Of a stretch of 64,000 nucleotides of DNA, positions 4,148 through 40,209 are shown piece after piece (the stretch's first letter is position 1; each line of letters opens with the position of its first letter). The translations under genes and the position numbers were made by a program. The notes beneath the pieces were generated by a model, which worked only from the letters and a program-made list of their open reading frames with translations, had not been told where the DNA came from and searched no databases. The stretch comes from an uncultured Chlorobiota bacterium (GTDB taxonomy: Bacteria; Bacteroidota; Ignavibacteria; UBA10030; UBA6906). The stretch covers positions 62,001 to 126,000 of the forward strand of contig CAADGV010000004.1 of NCBI GenBank assembly GCA_900696645.1. Direction: 5' to 3'.

Positions 4148-6613
4148 ATGAAAAGAAACAACTACGCTCTCGCTACCTTTGCCATGTTTCTCCTGCTGCT
4201 TACTACAATATGCGGGACTTTCGCACAAACGATTTCCGTTACGGTTTGCCTCAAAGCAAGCGATGGAACAACCGGTTTGCAGGGAGCAACTATTGAATAT
4301 GCGCCCGGAGGCACGTGGTACACATTCGGAACCACGGGTCCGGACGGGTGTACAACACTCGGGCTTGATGCAAACTATACTAATGTGAAGATCAGGATAG
4401 CGTACAACCAAGCAAGTCGGGAGTTGATTCAGAACATCCAAACGAATCCAAACTACGGTTTTCAAACCAGCGAGACGTTCGTTCAAGTTATTGATCACCT
4501 TGGCAATCCAATTTCCGGAGCACTTGTTAGTCAAGGGGGCGGGTACTGGTATGATCATGGCTATACTGGCACTGACGGCAAACTCATGCTGCAGATGTTC
4601 TTACCCCAAAACTATAAATTTAAGGCAACAGTTAACCATACTGCTTTGACCCTTGAAAACCAGCCCATGCCTGTAGTCTATCAAACCGGCCTAGTTAAGC
4701 GCGACAATGTTTACGTAGGAACAATCAGATCTGGCCTCATTGGCGGTTGGCAATATTTATGGCCGACCCCCGGTACAGGTGTGGAGATGTTGCCCGGAAC
4801 GTACTCAATTCAATACAATCCGGCTCCAGCAGGAGGTACGCCGGAGGAGGTTACCGTTGTTGCCGGACAGACAAAGACTATTCCTTGGGGAAGCGCCGTC
4901 ACCTCTTACACATTGATGTATCTCGCAGGTTCGGGCGGTACAATCACCGGTACGACCCCGCAGACAGTGAATTCAGGAGGAAATGGAACAGAAGTAACGG
5001 CAACGCCGAATGTAGGTTATCACTTCGTTAGTTGGAGCGACGGTGTCTTGACCGCGTCCCGCACCGAACTGAACGTGACAACAGATGTGACTGTTGCAGC
5101 CACCTTCGCCATCAACACCTACACCCTGACATACAACGCGGGCACAGGCGGCACAATCACAGGCACATCACCGCAAACGGTGAACTACAACGAAAGCGGG
5201 ACTGAAGTAACGGCCACGCCTGATGCAGGCCATCACTTCGTTGACTGGAGCGACGCTATGCTGACCGCATCGCGAACGGATGCAAACGTCACAGCAGATC
5301 TCACCGTGACTGCAAACTTTGCTCTCAATACGTATGAACTGACGGTCATATCAGCGCTGGGCGGTTCCATTACAACACCTGCATCATTACCGGCAACCGT
5401 GGAACACGGCGTCCCTACACCGATAACAGTAACGCCTGTGTCAGGTTACACGTTCAATGGGTGGACAGTTGAAACAGGTGCGGCAACCATCGCTGATGCG
5501 TTACAGCCAAACACAACCGTAACGTTGACCTCAGGCGATGCCACTGTTAAGGCAACGTTCACGGCTCTTCCCGGAAGCGTTTGTGGTACAGTGAAAGAAG
5601 GCACAGTTCCGCTGGAGAATGTAAAGGTCGAGCTTCGCGACGGGAATGGCGAATTGGTAGACTGGCTTTACACCAATACTGCCGGGTACTACTGTTTCAA
5701 CACCGTCAATCCGGACAACTATCAAGTTCTCATCGTCAAGCCGCTCGGCTACGCCATTGATCCGAACTATCAGAACATAGCCCTAACGCCCGCAGAGACT
5801 AAAACGGTGAATTTCCTTCTCACAAATGTCGTCTTGTGCAACAGGGCAAGGGATTTCTCTTATTGGAAGCATCAATTCGAAACGCACAGATGTCGCAGGC
5901 ACAATTGGCAGGAAACCCTGGAAAAACTTAACGGCTACATTGCAGCCGTGCACCAGTACTACACCCCTCACTTCCCGATATTTGCGAACCTGACGGACAA
6001 GGATGATTGGGAAGATCTCTTCACGATGCGCAGCAATCACCCGATGCGAAAGAAGGCAATCAAGCAACTAGCCGCACTCGTGATGAACTTCGTTTCGTTG
6101 AAGATCGGGCAAAACACTATCGTCACCAGAGACAATAAAACAGCAGGTGATGTCTTGACGTACGTGTCCCAACTCGTCACCAACAGCAACCCGAATGATG
6201 ATAACCTCGCCCGTCAACTGGCGAAAAAAGTCAATGATGGAGATAAAATTGCTTCCGGAATCGTGCCTGATGGATCGATTCTCTACAAAGGAGGAAACGG
6301 CTATCGACAGATCAACTGGGGCTTTGACGTTCCAAGGGAGTATGCTCTCGAGCAGAACTACCCGAACCCGTTCAACCCGACGACGATTATCAGATTTGCT
6401 GTGCCTGTTGACGGAAGTGTGAGCCTTGTAGTATTCAACACTCTTGGCCAACAAGTTGCAGAATTGATGAACGGAACGGTGAAGCCCGGAACGTATGAGG
6501 TTCAATTCGATGCATCGAATATTGCCAGTGGCTTGTACTTCTGCAGAGTTGTCGCAAGAGGGTCGGATGGAAGTACGTTCAGTAACGTCCGGAAAATGCT
6601 GATGATGAAGTAA
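4148..6613 (+). CDS. T9SS cargo protein with InlB-type B-repeats and a YWKHQF module
   Basis: This is a secreted protein of about 821 residues. The ATG at 4148 is preceded by a strong Shine-Dalgarno sequence (GAGGGGAG, 7 bases upstream) and opens a signal peptide ending TTICGTFAQ. The middle holds one QGGGYW module (about residues 110-230). Three divergent InlB B-repeat-like units follow (YTLTYNAGTGGTITG...TATPDAGHHFVDWSD, about 254-474), then a carboxypeptidase-regulatory/SdrD B-like domain (about 476-556). Next is a helical, basic module beginning YWKHQFETHRCRRHNW (about 566-715) that recurs in the gene at 45.8 kb. The end is a T9SS sorting domain (QNYPNPFNPTTIIRF...MLMMK). It is likely an adhesive or structural surface protein. 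Confidence 0.85.
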   Translation: MKRNNYALATFAMFLLLLTTICGTFAQTISVTVCLKASDGTTGLQGATIEYAPGGTWYTFGTTGPDGCTTLGLDANYTNVKIRIAYNQASRELIQNIQTNPNYGFQTSETFVQVIDHLGNPISGALVSQGGGYWYDHGYTGTDGKLMLQMFLPQNYKFKATVNHTALTLENQPMPVVYQTGLVKRDNVYVGTIRSGLIGGWQYLWPTPGTGVEMLPGTYSIQYNPAPAGGTPEEVTVVAGQTKTIPWGSAVTSYTLMYLAGSGGTITGTTPQTVNSGGNGTEVTATPNVGYHFVSWSDGVLTASRTELNVTTDVTVAATFAINTYTLTYNAGTGGTITGTSPQTVNYNESGTEVTATPDAGHHFVDWSDAMLTASRTDANVTADLTVTANFALNTYELTVISALGGSITTPASLPATVEHGVPTPITVTPVSGYTFNGWTVETGAATIADALQPNTTVTLTSGDATVKATFTALPGSVCGTVKEGTVPLENVKVELRDGNGELVDWLYTNTAGYYCFNTVNPDNYQVLIVKPLGYAIDPNYQNIALTPAETKTVNFLLTNVVLCNRARDFSYWKHQFETHRCRRHNWQETLEKLNGYIAAVHQYYTPHFPIFANLTDKDDWEDLFTMRSNHPMRKKAIKQLAALVMNFVSLKIGQNTIVTRDNKTAGDVLTYVSQLVTNSNPNDDNLARQLAKKVNDGDKIASGIVPDGSILYKGGNGYRQINWGFDVPREYALEQNYPNPFNPTTIIRFAVPVDGSVSLVVFNTLGQQVAELMNGTVKPGTYEVQFDASNIASGLYFCRVVARGSDGSTFSNVRKMLMMK

Positions 6614-20364: not shown

Positions 20365-21675
20365 ATGAGGAAAGCGATCATAAAACACGTATTCGTTCTA
20401 TCAGCATTTGTCTGCTGCGGAGTATCCACCGGGGCTCTGGCACAATCGAACGGAGAGCCAACTCCTGAGATGAAACTCATCAGTGATATCGAAAACGCAC
20501 GCCTCAATCAACAATCACTGGAGCGCATTCTCGGTGAGTTGAACATGGTTGACAGCGCGTACGCCCCTTCGTTCCCGCGTTGGCAAGTGGATGAGCCAAA
20601 CCTGAAGCTGCGCGTCTATGCAGCCTTTCGGAACAGGGGATTGAGATTCTCGACGGAGGATGCCATCACCGTCATCGCCAATCCCGATTCACAATCCATT
20701 TCCGAGATAAAGATCGGGGATGTTTCGTATGGAAAGATCTACATTCAGACTCTTCTTGCCCGTGATCTCAAATCCGATTTGTTGAGTCAAGCGGCGCATA
20801 GCGAACCCCCGTACGGCTTCCTGGATCTCTATGAGGAAGTCTCCAACCCGCTCGCCCGCCCAAGCAAGCCCGACTGGGTTGCTGCCGAATTCTCACTCTT
20901 CGGAGGCTCTTTGCGTTTTGGAAACAATTGGGGGATCGCAGCACGAATCGGGGAGGATGAATTGGGGTACACCTTCTGGTCGGTCGGGAATATGAGAGTC
21001 ATGCTCTCCTACAAATCACTCAAATTGGGTGCATGGGTTCCCATCAACGGCGGGCTGCACAGAGACGACAAGGATGAAGTTAGTCAAGAAGAGAGTTCAT
21101 CCCGTTTGCTTAATGGAACGTTCGGTGTCGTCGGGGAATTCGAGTTTGAGTGGAATTTGATCAGAATCAAATCGGACTTTTTCCCCTACGCTGCAATAGG
21201 AGGGAAATTCGGCTTCGGAACGTTGCCGGGAAGACGCGAAACATTCTATACTCCAAATCGTGACAGCTTGAGATACATCTCTGTATCTGCCCAAGCCTAT
21301 TACGCGTTTGATGTTCTGTTTGATGAGAAACAGCAGAATCTCAATGTGCATCTCGGCGTCAGCTATCACAAAGTGAATTTGGGCAAAGCACTGCCTGTCG
21401 GTGGAGTAGAAGATAAAATGGTTGTGTTCGAAGCCGGACCCCCTGAAACGTTTATCGATCCGTATGTTCGTATTGAGTACAGGTATGCCCGTCTCGATCG
21501 ATTCAGGGTTACAGCACAGTACAGCAATCTTTTGATGCTTGTCGGTTGGGCTGAGATTGTGCCTCCGTTCATCTACGTTGAAGTTAAATACTCTGCCCCG
21601 GCGTTCCGCAACAGGCGGCCCTGGGAACACAAGAGCTACCTGTACGCGACTGCAGGCTTCAAATTCGATTTTTGA
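20365..21675 (+). CDS. Outer-membrane barrel-like protein, paralogue B
   Basis: This 436-residue exported protein has a signal peptide ending STGALAQ and an N-terminal helical segment. The C-terminal beta-rich half ends KFDF, with the terminal Phe typical of outer-membrane proteins. It shares the central block RFGNNWGIAARIGEDELG and the LNGTFGVVGEFE block with the preceding protein, showing a gene duplication followed by strong divergence. It is 18 bases downstream of paralogue A and closes the operon, which ends in a hairpin at 21691. Confidence 0.6.
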   Translation: MRKAIIKHVFVLSAFVCCGVSTGALAQSNGEPTPEMKLISDIENARLNQQSLERILGELNMVDSAYAPSFPRWQVDEPNLKLRVYAAFRNRGLRFSTEDAITVIANPDSQSISEIKIGDVSYGKIYIQTLLARDLKSDLLSQAAHSEPPYGFLDLYEEVSNPLARPSKPDWVAAEFSLFGGSLRFGNNWGIAARIGEDELGYTFWSVGNMRVMLSYKSLKLGAWVPINGGLHRDDKDEVSQEESSSRLLNGTFGVVGEFEFEWNLIRIKSDFFPYAAIGGKFGFGTLPGRRETFYTPNRDSLRYISVSAQAYYAFDVLFDEKQQNLNVHLGVSYHKVNLGKALPVGGVEDKMVVFEAGPPETFIDPYVRIEYRYARLDRFRVTAQYSNLLMLVGWAEIVPPFIYVEVKYSAPAFRNRRPWEHKSYLYATAGFKFDF

Positions 21676-35974: not shown

Positions 35975-37294
35975 TCAGAATGAAAGACTCGTGTCGAAAT
36001 TCTCCAACCCCTTCACAATCTCTTCGAGAAACATCCCTCCGAGCGCCCCATCAACGATACGATGGTCGAAGGATAGCGTGAAGAACGCCATCGAGCGAAT
36101 CGCAATCATATCATCAACAACCATCACACGTTTCTTGATGGCGCCTGTTCCGAGAATCGCCACTTGCGGCTGGCTGATGATCGGTGTGCCGATGAGTGTT
36201 CCGAACACTCCGAAGTTGGAGATTGTGAATGTGCCGCCTTGAATATCGTCGGGTGTCAGCTTCTTGTTGCGAGTGCGTGTAGCAAGATCGTTGACGGCGC
36301 GGGCAAAACCGAGAAAATTCTTCTCTTCGGCATTCTTGATGACGGGAACGATCAGTCCGTTCTCAGCCGCAACAGCGAGGCCGAGATTGATGAAGTTCTT
36401 CTTGATAATCTTATCCCCTTCAATCGACGTGTTGACGAGAGGATACTTTTTCAATGCATTCACTACCGCCTGCACAATGTACGGAGTGTATGTGAGCTTG
36501 AAGCCTTCCTTTGTCTCAAATGAGGCCGCGTGGGCTGCACGATGTTTCACAACCTCCGTCATATCCACTTCGTGAATGGCAGCGACATGCGGAGAGGTAT
36601 GCACACTCTTGACCATGTGCTCCGCCATTTTCTGCAGAACATTACTCATCTGAATAATGTCGTGTTGCGGAGCCGGATACTTAGCCCGCAGTTCAGGCAC
36701 ATCAACTGTCTTGCCTGCAATCGCCATTGACGGTGCGGTGGGCGCTGTCTTTGCAGAAGTGGGCTTCGGCGTTGTGAGCGCGCCGCTTTTTTTTGCATTA
36801 ACGTAAGTAAGAATATCTTTCTTTGAGACACGTCCTCCGTCGCCCGTACCCGGGATCAACTCCAATTCCTGCATCGCAATTCCTTCTTCACGCGCAATGT
36901 TCAACACGAGCGGAGAATAAAATCTTCCCGATGCTGGCGCTGACAGGGTCTGAGCGGCTGGTGCAGCAGCAACTGCAGGCGCGGGTGTTGACGCAACAGC
37001 TTGTGGTGCAGGAGCAGCGGGCTTCGGTTCTTCCGTAACAGCAACCGCTCCGCCTTCTGTATCAAGAAACGCAATCACCGTTCTCACCGGAACTGTGGTT
37101 TGTTCCTGGACAACGATTTCCGTAAGCGTTCCTGATGCCGGCGAGGGAATTTCGGAATCCACTTTGTCGGTGGAGATTTCCAAAATCGTCTCGTCTTTCT
37201 TCACTTTGTCGCCGACCTTCTTGTGCCATTTCACAATGGTACCTTCGGCGATGCTCTCGCCCATCTGGGGCATGACGACTTCTACACGTGCCAT
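35975..37294 (-). CDS. 2-oxoacid dehydrogenase E2 (dihydrolipoamide acyltransferase)
   Basis: This is a 439-residue core subunit. It has one lipoyl domain (Lys44 in [12 protein letters not shown]), an Ala/Pro linker (about 80-120) and an E3/E1-binding domain ([11 protein letters not shown]...[13 protein letters not shown], about 128-165). The catalytic domain ends with [10 protein letters not shown]. It transfers an acyl group to CoA; whether acetyl, branched-chain or succinyl cannot be decided from sequence alone. AAGGAAG precedes the ATG. Its first 38 bases are repeated 1,091 bases upstream beyond the TIR gene. Confidence 0.93.
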
Positions 37295-37295
37295 A
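37255..37295. repeat. 41-bp direct repeat, copy 1 (E2 gene start)
   Basis: This copy covers the first 40 bases of the intact E2 gene plus one base upstream. It is identical over 41 bases to 38346-38386. The two copies bracket the TIR gene and lie exactly 1,091 bases apart. Confidence 0.95.
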
Positions 37296-37392
37296 GTTAC
37301 TTCCTTTTATTCTTTTCCTTTTACTACTTGTATCCGATTCTCTCGTTTCCGCCGCGTGCGGCATATTTCCCTTCCGCCTACGTCGGCACCCT

Positions 37393-38301
37393 TTAGGGTT
37401 TCTTGTCGTGGCCCGGCTCTTCTGTCGGAGAGGGATTTAGCACTTGCGCACCAACCGTAACGGTTACCGCATCAGATGCGCTTCCAGTAGTGTTGCTACA
37501 AATAATATTGTAAGTGGCGGTATGAGTTAAGTTTCCAGTGGAGAAAGATCCGGACAGGGCACGACTGCCAGTCCAACCATTCGATCCACCGTAGCTAGAA
37601 CAGGAAATGGCATTGCTGGATGACCAGCGAATGGTCGTAACTCCATTATAAGGAACATAAGCATTGTCTGCAAAGATTTTGACAGACGGCTTTACACCTT
37701 CATCTTGGATAGACATTTTGTGAATAATCCACACCACCACGAACACAGTCATACTCGCGAGCACAATAATCGTCAACACAAGTAGAACATTCTTCCAAGA
37801 AAATTCTTTTGACTGGCCGGGCAGCAGCCCAACTTCTGGTACAACAATGCGAGGCGGCTGCTCAGTCCGGAGCGCCATCTTAATCTGGTTGCATATCTCG
37901 AAGAGCGCTTTATCCTGTTGCCATTTTTCCATGCTCTCGAGCGGATTTTGCGGATCATGTGTTGCCTGATAATCAGTTAGCTCGGTTTCATCGAACATGC
38001 AATAGGAAATCGGGACCCAAATAATTTTCAGCCCTCGACTTTCAGCGGCTTTGAGTAATTGCGGAATCTCTTGGGCAGTGACAAACTCCGACGCAAGAAA
38101 ATTCTGGCTCACGAGCATCACTGCAATATCGGCTTTGTTGAGCTCCTTTTCGATTTCCTCTTTCCATTTCGCCCCAACGTGAATCTTAGTATCATCCCAC
38201 GCGGAGATGAGATTATTGCGCAGAAGCGGCTTCAGCGTCTTTTGAAGGCGCTCAAGCCATTCCTTGTCTTGATGACAATAGCTGATGAACACATTAGGCA
38301 T
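37393..38301 (-). CDS. TIR-domain membrane protein with extracytoplasmic Ig-like domain
   Basis: This 302-residue protein begins with a bacterial TIR domain (about 1-145: MPNVFISYCHQDKEW, then ADIAVMLVSQNFLASEF). Glu78 is the candidate NADase glutamate. A membrane helix follows (about 173-195). The outer part (about 205-290) is an Ig-like domain with two cysteines, SSSNAISC and YNIIC. The expected topology is TIR inside, Ig outside. Bacterial TIR proteins often serve in antiphage defence by depleting NAD. It is inserted between E1 beta and E2 and bracketed by 41-bp repeats of the E2 start. It looks more AT-rich than its neighbours. The start lacks a good Shine-Dalgarno sequence. Confidence 0.85.
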   Translation of the reverse strand: MPNVFISYCHQDKEWLERLQKTLKPLLRNNLISAWDDTKIHVGAKWKEEIEKELNKADIAVMLVSQNFLASEFVTAQEIPQLLKAAESRGLKIIWVPISYCMFDETELTDYQATHDPQNPLESMEKWQQDKALFEICNQIKMALRTEQPPRIVVPEVGLLPGQSKEFSWKNVLLVLTIIVLASMTVFVVVWIIHKMSIQDEGVKPSVKIFADNAYVPYNGVTTIRWSSSNAISCSSYGGSNGWTGSRALSGSFSTGNLTHTATYNIICSNTTGSASDAVTVTVGAQVLNPSPTEEPGHDKKP

Positions 38302-38325
38302 CGCGCACCGTTTGCACTATACGAA

Positions 38326-38385
38326 TCAGTTTTCTCTCTCGAAGTTCTCGCCCATCTGGGGCATGACGACTTCTACACGTGCCAT
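38326..38385 (-). pseudogene. Truncated 5' copy of the E2 gene (19 codons)
   Basis: The first 13 codons ([13 protein letters not shown]) are identical to the intact E2 gene. The frame then diverges to NFEREN and stops. It lies where E2 would be expected, directly after E1 beta and before the TIR gene. I read it as the scar of the event that brought in the TIR gene. Confidence 0.85.
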
Positions 38386-38386
38386 A
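38346..38386. repeat. 41-bp direct repeat, copy 2 (truncated E2 start)
   Basis: This is identical to 37255-37295. Outside these 41 bases the two flanks differ completely. Confidence 0.95.
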
Positions 38387-38489: not shown

Positions 38490-39467
38490 CTAAAAATTTG
38501 CCAACTCTCTCAAAACCGTTACTACCTTCTGTGTATTCGGCAAAACAAAATCCTCCAGCGTCGGCGCAAACGGAACCGGAACATCCAACGCACCCAACCG
38601 CTTGATCGGTGCGTCGAGATATTGGAACACATTATCTGCAATCAGTGCAGCAACCTCAGCGCCGATTCCACCGGTCACGTTGTCCTCATGAACAATCAAC
38701 ACTTTGCCGGTCGCTTTCACGGCTGCGAAGATTGCCTCCTTGTCAAGCGGGGCGAGCGTTCGCAAATCCAATACCATCACATCAATACCATCCTCTTTGG
38801 CGAGAGTTTCGGCGGCCTCAAGTGATTGATGCACAGTAGAACCATATGTAATGATGGCAATGTCGCTGCCATTGCGTTTCACATCTGCTTTGCCAATCTC
38901 AACGATATGATCGCCTTCGGGAACTTCTCCTTTGATGCGGCGGTAGAGATACTTCGACTCCAGATAAAGCACGGGATTATTGTCCCGCACGGCCGCCTTC
39001 ATCAGTCCTTTTGCATCAGCAGGAGTTGACGGCGCAACGATTTTCAGTCCGGGGAAATGATGAAACCACGCCTCCGTGCTTGACGAATGATACGGCCCGC
39101 CGCGTATGTAACCGCCGTTCGGCAGACGAATCACCATCGGTGCAGGAAGATTCCAGCGATAGTGAATCTTCGCGCAGTTGGTGATAATTTGATTGAAGCC
39201 GCACGAGACGAAATCTGCAAATTGAATCTCAACAATCGGTCGCATGCCAACAACTGCCGCACCCGCCGCAGCGCCGATGATTGCGGCCTCCGAAAGAACG
39301 GAATCAATCACCCGTTCTTCGCCAAAATGCTTTTGAAATCCCTTCGTTGCCTTGAACGCGCCGCCGTAGGCCCCAATGTCCTCGCCAATCAGGAAGACGG
39401 ACTCGTCACGTTCCATCTCCTCCCACATGCCTCTGGAGAGGGCTTCGATGTAGGTCAGGGTTGGCAT
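38490..39467 (-). CDS. 2-oxoacid dehydrogenase E1 beta subunit
   Basis: This 325-residue subunit carries the transketolase-like motifs of E1 beta: LTYIEALSRGMWEEM, GEDIGAYGGAFKATKG, SEAAIIGAAAGAA, GGYIRGGPYHSSS and LIVHEDNVTGGIGAEV. It pairs with the E1 alpha at 40210 to bind thiamine diphosphate. I start at ATG 39467, the conserved N-terminus; it lies one base after the toxin stop (TGAGATG), with no Shine-Dalgarno sequence. Its translation may therefore depend on ribosomes finishing the toxin gene. Confidence 0.92.
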   Translation of the reverse strand: MPTLTYIEALSRGMWEEMERDESVFLIGEDIGAYGGAFKATKGFQKHFGEERVIDSVLSEAAIIGAAAGAAVVGMRPIVEIQFADFVSCGFNQIITNCAKIHYRWNLPAPMVIRLPNGGYIRGGPYHSSSTEAWFHHFPGLKIVAPSTPADAKGLMKAAVRDNNPVLYLESKYLYRRIKGEVPEGDHIVEIGKADVKRNGSDIAIITYGSTVHQSLEAAETLAKEDGIDVMVLDLRTLAPLDKEAIFAAVKATGKVLIVHEDNVTGGIGAEVAALIADNVFQYLDAPIKRLGALDVPVPFAPTLEDFVLPNTQKVVTVLRELANF

Positions 39468-39468
39468 C

Positions 39469-39795
39469 TCATTTAATGATTGCTCTGAAAATGCTTCTGA
39501 ACTTGCGAAGTTCCGATTTCGATAGTCTTCCAAGTGAGGTAATAACCGTGCTTTGTCGAAGCGTTGCAATCCGATCCACCTTCACGACTGATGGGACACG
39601 AAGTCCATTCGCCCGAGTTGGCTTAAGTATGAATTCGTTCTCGGATAACCTCGTTTCGATCACTGAACTCACCGCGCATACAATCACATCGTGATAACGA
39701 TCCTGTGTGAGTCCAACGACAACAGCAGGACGTACTTTCCGCACCGGCACATCCGCGAACGGAAACGGGACTATGATGATGTCACCAGTCTTCAA
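39469..39795 (-). CDS. PemK/MazF-family toxin
   Basis: This 108-residue protein starts MKTGDIIIVPFPFADVPVRKVRPAVVV, the standard start of MazF/PemK endoribonucleases, and continues with VDRIATLRQSTV. Family members cut mRNA and stop growth. It overlaps the upstream antitoxin gene by 4 bases (ATGA) and sits between the E1 alpha and E1 beta genes. Confidence 0.88.
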   Translation of the reverse strand: MKTGDIIIVPFPFADVPVRKVRPAVVVGLTQDRYHDVIVCAVSSVIETRLSENEFILKPTRANGLRVPSVVKVDRIATLRQSTVITSLGRLSKSELRKFRSIFRAIIK

Positions 39796-40004
39796 GACTT
39801 TCTTGCCAAAAGGTCCTGATAAATGTCCTCGCGTTCATCATTCCAGAAAGAGAATGCCTCACTCTGGGATGTGAACGTCCGCATATCCTCATCGTCCTCG
39901 ATTTCTTCCAAGAATGTGATGACGACTCTGTACTTCTTTTTCCCGGGAAGTTTTTCGAGTAAGCGAACGCGTTCGCCATCATAAATTCCTCTTACCGAAA
40001 GCAT
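39792..40004 (-). CDS. Antitoxin of the MazF-type pair
   Basis: This 70-residue protein starts at ATG 40004 behind a strong AAAGGAGG. It opens MLSVRGIYDGERVRLLEKLP and ends with an acidic, aromatic tail (FSFWNDEREDIYQDLL) typical of toxin-neutralising regions. The assignment rests on size, position just before the toxin and this layout. It probably binds and inhibits the toxin and may repress its promoter. Confidence 0.75.
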   Translation of the reverse strand: MLSVRGIYDGERVRLLEKLPGKKKYRVVITFLEEIEDDEDMRTFTSQSEAFSFWNDEREDIYQDLLARKS

Positions 40005-40209
40005 GATCGCCTCCTTTACTATATTCGATTTTGCCATTTCCTAATTATCCCCCGCATCTGGCTCTTTGTTAGCCTTCTCTCACTGCCCATTTCAACTTGA
40101 CGCTCAAGATTGGGATAGCCGGATGCATGTAAGTGTCAGAATTCAGCGTCAGTATCCAATTACGAAATTTGATTCTTCTGCACTGAAAAGCAACACTCAC
40201 ATTGCCACA

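Follow-up and report, generated by a model that had tools for sequence, protein, structure and literature searches.

How a gene for a TIR-domain protein came to lie between two copies of the start of the E2 gene in a pyruvate dehydrogenase operon is the question raised by this locus. The window (the whole stretch of 64,000 nucleotides analyzed) comes from the genome designated G000 (4.2 Mb, 46 contigs); G001 and G002 are its congeners, and the named relatives of the window's E2 belong to Ignavibacteria. Judging from sequence comparisons, we hold it reasonably probable that the insert is a TIR cassette, flanked by a long duplication of its host target at the E2 start and carrying no recombinase of its own.

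Structure of the insert at the E2 start

On the minus strand, to which all coordinates of features below refer, the genes are arranged in the order of E1 alpha-beta, E1 alpha, an antitoxin-PemK pair, E1 beta, an E2 stub, the TIR gene, E2, and LipA. A perfect direct repeat of 41 bp, TCTCGCCCATCTGGGGCATGACGACTTCTACACGTGCCATA, occupies positions 37255–37295 and 38346–38386 with a period of 1,091 bp, and any extension leads to a mismatch. The repeat consists of the one base before the ATG of E2 and the first 13 E2 codons. Its downstream copy is the start of the intact E2 gene, which encodes the dihydrolipoamide acyltransferase (35975–37294; Pfam 2-oxoacid_dh, Biotin_lipoyl, and E3_binding), and its upstream copy is the start of a 19-codon stub (38326–38385). 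The unique part of the insert (37296–38345; 1,050 bp) has a GC content of 0.473, compared with 0.507 for the window, and contains the TIR gene (37393–38301; 302 amino acids). The upstream operon neighbor, E1 beta (38490–39467; Pfam Transket_pyr and Transketolase_C), is unaffected. The repeat and its spacing, the TIR gene between the copies, the intact E2, and the stub had all been described in the earlier note, and the sequence bears out each of them.

E2 remains whole, because the downstream copy holds its start codon and first 13 codons. The last bases of the insert just before the E2 ATG are AAGGAAG, and thus E2 retains a plausible ribosome-binding site. E2 would still be part of the operon transcript, and the upstream copy is left as the stub. 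The TIR gene is the only long open reading frame in the insert, and so the earlier statement that no recombinase is present holds within it. No inverted-repeat pair was found at the insert ends, and the duplication of 41 bp exceeds the target duplications of transposons; the insert is therefore unlike an insertion sequence, a transposon, or a MITE.

The best ungapped score between the two flanks of the insert is 41, whereas the maximum for shuffled sequences is 10, which is far beyond chance. A search for the 41-bp sequence elsewhere, as proposed in the earlier note, located the E2-start sequence at only two places in the whole G000 genome, both at this locus, and the pattern is absent from the viral contigs. 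Direct repeats were scanned in 1.15 Mb and then in 1.9 Mb of G000 (approximately 45% of the genome), where comparable ones are very rare after exclusion of paralogues and dispersed repeats. Other long repeats in G000 (a 70-bp one on C21, and those on C26, C6, and C15) were discounted as being of the dispersed or regulatory type. The C21 repeat is a terminator-like sequence present three times (4490–4559, 5778–5847, and 20647–20716); two of its copies flank a quinone-reductase-like gene and may represent a dispersed repeat or another cassette.

In G001 (L039), a TIR gene is found at the identical junction with a stub of equal length and homologous insert ends. Since this independent assembly has the same arrangement with diverged copies, the possibility that the repeat is an assembly artefact was rejected. 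The duplication is 41 bp and exact in G000 and comprises 45 aligned bases in G001. The left boundary of the insert is not sharp, as G001 keeps GAGAGCATC where G000 has GAGAACTTC.

Among the relatives with the junction covered, only G000 and G001 have a TIR-encoding insert between E1 beta and E2. In G002 and the other such relatives except G027, E2 comes immediately after E1 beta, and this absence of the TIR gene is what identifies the unique part as an insertion. The empty sites expected by the earlier note are thus present. The stub is also absent from G002 and the other relatives, and no other cargo between copies of the 41-bp repeat, which the note had suggested looking for, was found in the relatives examined. 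Among approximately 100 loci, a copy of the E2 start upstream of E2 is seen only in the window and G001, apart from some Balneolaceae, in which a copy approximately 350 bp upstream of E2 is read as a second lipoyl domain. In G027 (L052, 6987–7589), a nucleotidyltransferase-like gene, unrelated to the TIR gene and without repeats, lies between E1 beta and E2.

Accessory genes are also found at the E1 alpha–E1 beta junction and differ among genomes (window, 39469–40037; L042, 1600–2138; L039, 9351–10460; L040, 9959–10590): the antitoxin-PemK pair in G000 and G011, a RAMA/DUF4357 protein and a response regulator in G001, and an HNH protein in G002. A nucleotidyltransferase-like gene without repeats precedes E1 alpha in G001 (L039, 11558–11998). 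No long duplication above the shuffled background was found at these other inserts in the operon junctions (the PemK pair, the HNH gene, the RAMA/response regulator genes, and the nucleotidyltransferases). The PemK and antitoxin genes of G000 and G011 have diverged approximately as the host genes have, and therefore no recent transfer is indicated for them.

The TIR protein

The TIR domain is located at the N-terminus, where the matches to Pfam TIR_2 (1.6e-15) and the PADLOC model ThsB1 (2.3e-19) cover residues 1–145, in agreement with the earlier description of the cargo as a probable defence gene. Glu78 is at what we take to be the position of the catalytic glutamate in TIR NADases. The domain is followed by a predicted hydrophobic helix (approximately residues 169–196) and a C-terminal β-rich domain, which matches regions of open reading frames of approximately 1,000 amino acids in G004 and G019. 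An AlphaFold model built from two sequences had a pLDDT of 47 and was not taken into a fold search. The protein resembles ThsB of the Thoeris system in its TIR domain; it differs in the extra helix and the C-terminal domain, and no ThsA partner is adjacent to the gene, its neighbors being E1 beta, E2, and LipA. The gene is under purifying selection (dN/dS of approximately 0.36 between G000 and G001), and phage defence is a plausible role by analogy with the family.

The TIR ATG is 24 bases downstream of the stub stop codon and has no evident Shine–Dalgarno sequence, and hence translation coupled to the stub is possible. We envisage a membrane-anchored defence NADase that would be translated from the operon message.

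The nearest other TIR homologue in the genus is in G002 (L057, 9522–10373; 54% over the TIR domain). It has a different C-terminal part and sits among small antitoxin-like genes in an accessory region. No flanking repeats were found around the next TIR homologues (L057, L058, and L260). A TIR search of genome contigs gave pattern matches, of which none was confirmed, and on plasmids only distant TIR-domain matches were obtained.

Age of the cassette and its route to the site

The divergence of the insert between G000 and G001 should be noted. At 4-fold degenerate sites, the TIR gene differs at 25 of 96 (0.26), as against 465 of 921 (0.505) in the five operon genes E1 beta, E2, E1 alpha, E1 alpha-beta, and LipA pooled (Fisher p = 4.8e-6). 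Its synonymous divergence is approximately half that of each of these large neighbors (p of 0.0014 or less for all five), although the TIR protein evolves faster than they do (dN of 0.148 versus 0.03–0.08). The divergence is not lowered in the flanking codons, namely codons 1–40 of E2 (6 of 14 sites, 0.43) and 281–320 of E1 beta (7 of 17, 0.41), each a small window and weak alone. The non-coding parts of the insert behave likewise: the left 46-bp end is approximately 85% identical and the right end is alignable nearly throughout, whereas the host spacer before the stub is not alignable. The two repeat copies show no difference in G000, and 4 differences among the 40 bases counted from the ATG in G001; the copies group by genome (CGT/CGA at codon 3 and GTC/GTA at codon 7), with no site grouping by position, although this grouping rests on two parsimony-informative sites.

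The low 4-fold divergence of the TIR gene and the likeness of the copies within each genome suggest that the cassette probably postdates the split of the two species, having been moved or re-inserted to leave a host-derived target duplication. The simplest reading of these comparisons places the entry or exchange of the cassette after the divergence of the hosts, with host-type copies left each time; it would probably have reached the two congeners separately or passed between them once their chromosomes had diverged. The same site in two species is unexpected for random insertion, however, and fits this reading only if the cassette was exchanged by homologous recombination or if the site is preferred.

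The shared site, the homologous insert ends, and the equal stub length would also follow from a single ancestral insertion with target duplication before the species split, inherited vertically, with later gene conversion equalizing the G000 copies. Over a distance of 1 kb, conversion is in principle plausible and would explain the likeness of the copies, but it does not explain the reduced synonymous divergence of a gene whose protein changes faster, nor the alignable non-coding ends beside a spacer that cannot be aligned. Since an unexplained slow synonymous rate has to be added to conversion, we regard an ancestral insertion as unlikely, while giving it more weight than the other alternatives. 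The proposal of the earlier note that the cassette was trans-mobilised, in this case by a resident integrase, fares less well and appears improbable to us. The shared site, the host-type copies on both sides, and the restored gene end would suit such an enzyme, tyrosine-recombinase genes are available (six in G000 and four in G001), and 5′-end integration inside an operon has a precedent in the SpyCI islands (PMC3430984). The insert itself, however, has no integrase; those of the two genomes are on contigs other than that of the insert; neither an att-like architecture nor an integrase-bearing relative was found, and no inverted repeat for recombinase arms was recognized by eye in the core. 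Besides the absence of the E2-start pattern noted above, no TIR relative was found in viral contigs or phage records, and the HEPN-MNT modules with the same footprint described below have unrelated targets and repeat lengths. The idea that the stub remains from a duplicated lipoyl domain of E2, inside which the TIR gene landed, draws on several relatives whose E2 has two lipoyl domains, such as G006. It is largely refuted and hardly credible, as the closest relatives have one lipoyl domain, and the similarity is limited to 41–45 bp and is far above that between tandem lipoyl domains.

For the favored reading, an insertion leaving a long duplication of its target, the joining may have occurred by illegitimate or homology-assisted recombination of the incoming DNA with the target at two staggered positions, which could lie on sister chromosomes, for instance. 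Duplications at gene ends would survive since the host gene is kept whole, and recombination between the repeat copies could cleanly remove the cassette.

Recurrence and relation to known insertions

The G000 scan revealed one further gene-end case of the same layout, in which a HEPN-MNT pair (C5, 255–1261; L067) is bracketed by the repeated 3′ end of glgA (89 of 97 positions identical). No HEPN-MNT pair lies within 590 bp downstream of the G001 glgA. The glgA remnant in G000 resembles the G001 glgA end slightly more than the resident gene end does, and is therefore not a simple copy of its own glgA end, which suggests that this duplication may be partly donor-borne.

Long direct repeats bracket 8 of 29 HEPN loci examined in the class, as against 39 of 1897 control points (2%; 28 of 662 in 20 of the same neighborhoods and 11 of 1235 in E2 loci), with a combined p of 2e-7 that is approximate, as are the other p-values here, because the control points overlap and are not independent. 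By a stricter criterion (at least 40 matches and 90% identity), the counts are 6 of 29 and 10 of 1628. In the same-genome neighborhoods alone, whose controls cover 20 of the 29 loci, they are 3 of 20 and 28 of 662 (p = 0.057). The repeats at L288, L293, and L294 may be dispersed or paralogous. In addition to the 97-bp glgA case, the candidate duplications comprise 68 bp of the 3′ end of a gene for 477 amino acids (L286), 45 bp from the 3′ end of a response regulator (L309, the same as L277), approximately 130 bp that take in the start of a YefM-like antitoxin gene (L291), 127 bp of intergenic sequence (L311, the same as L279), and 103 bp after a PIN-toxin-like gene (L296, the same as L267). 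Their targets are unrelated and all six concern HEPN-MNT modules, while the TIR cassette is known at a single target only.

This anatomy recalls insertion with long target duplication, for which Nobusato, Uchiyama, Ohashi, and Kobayashi (2000) are the source according to the review PMC3874152. In PMC1643837, PMC3031569, and PMC3874152, it is cited for restriction-modification genes of H. pylori, and the last puts the length of the duplications on the order of 100 bp. A repeat-flanked restriction-modification cluster of Helicobacter has a history departing from that of the core genome (PMC4978471). The shared features are an accessory unit without a recombinase, a directly duplicated stretch of host DNA measuring tens to approximately 100 bp, and an empty site in relatives, which here have a single target copy and no insert; variation in duplication length and target is contributed by the HEPN-MNT candidates. 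The differences from the published cases are the TIR or HEPN-MNT cargo, the host group Ignavibacteria, and the use of both 5′ and 3′ gene ends. Because its cargo is a TIR gene and not a restriction-modification complex, the locus would best be filed, by sequence and analogy, as a variant of insertion with long target duplication with new cargo in a new phylum.

The closest precedent for 5′-end insertion in an operon is SpyCI at the 5′ end of Streptococcus pyogenes mutL (PMC3430984, PMC4689407). Unlike the 1.05-kb, single-gene TIR unit without an integrase, SpyCI are phage-like islands that encode an integrase and whose excision is proven, and the insert lacks the site-specific recombinase that an integrase-borne genomic island carries. 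Of the earlier suggestion of an integrated element that restores its target gene, insertion and restoration thus stand and the age fits mobility, but a classical site-specific island fits less well than insertion with long target duplication, given the anatomy and the recurrence with duplications of 45 to approximately 130 bp at unrelated HEPN-MNT targets. Searches of open-licence literature turned up no description of such TIR or HEPN-MNT modules.

More speculatively, Ignavibacteria and related lineages might host a general mobility route, enzyme-less or using an unknown enzyme, for defence and toxin modules of one or two genes, such as TIR and HEPN-MNT. Such modules would insert at the ends of genes in core operons with a long duplication of the target, keep the host gene whole, pass from one species to another at a shared site, and perhaps be lost again when the two copies recombine. 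The movement of single defence genes and toxin-antitoxin pairs that have neither a transposase nor an integrase is a long-standing problem; as the footprint is here placed in time relative to the divergence of the hosts, occurs again with other cargo and at other targets, and is counted against controls, it is systematically testable in genomes. The TIR locus is a natural example of an insertion in a core metabolic operon that leaves the target gene preserved, and it looks like one instance of a recurrent, poorly understood movement of tiny defence genes that carry no enzyme of their own.
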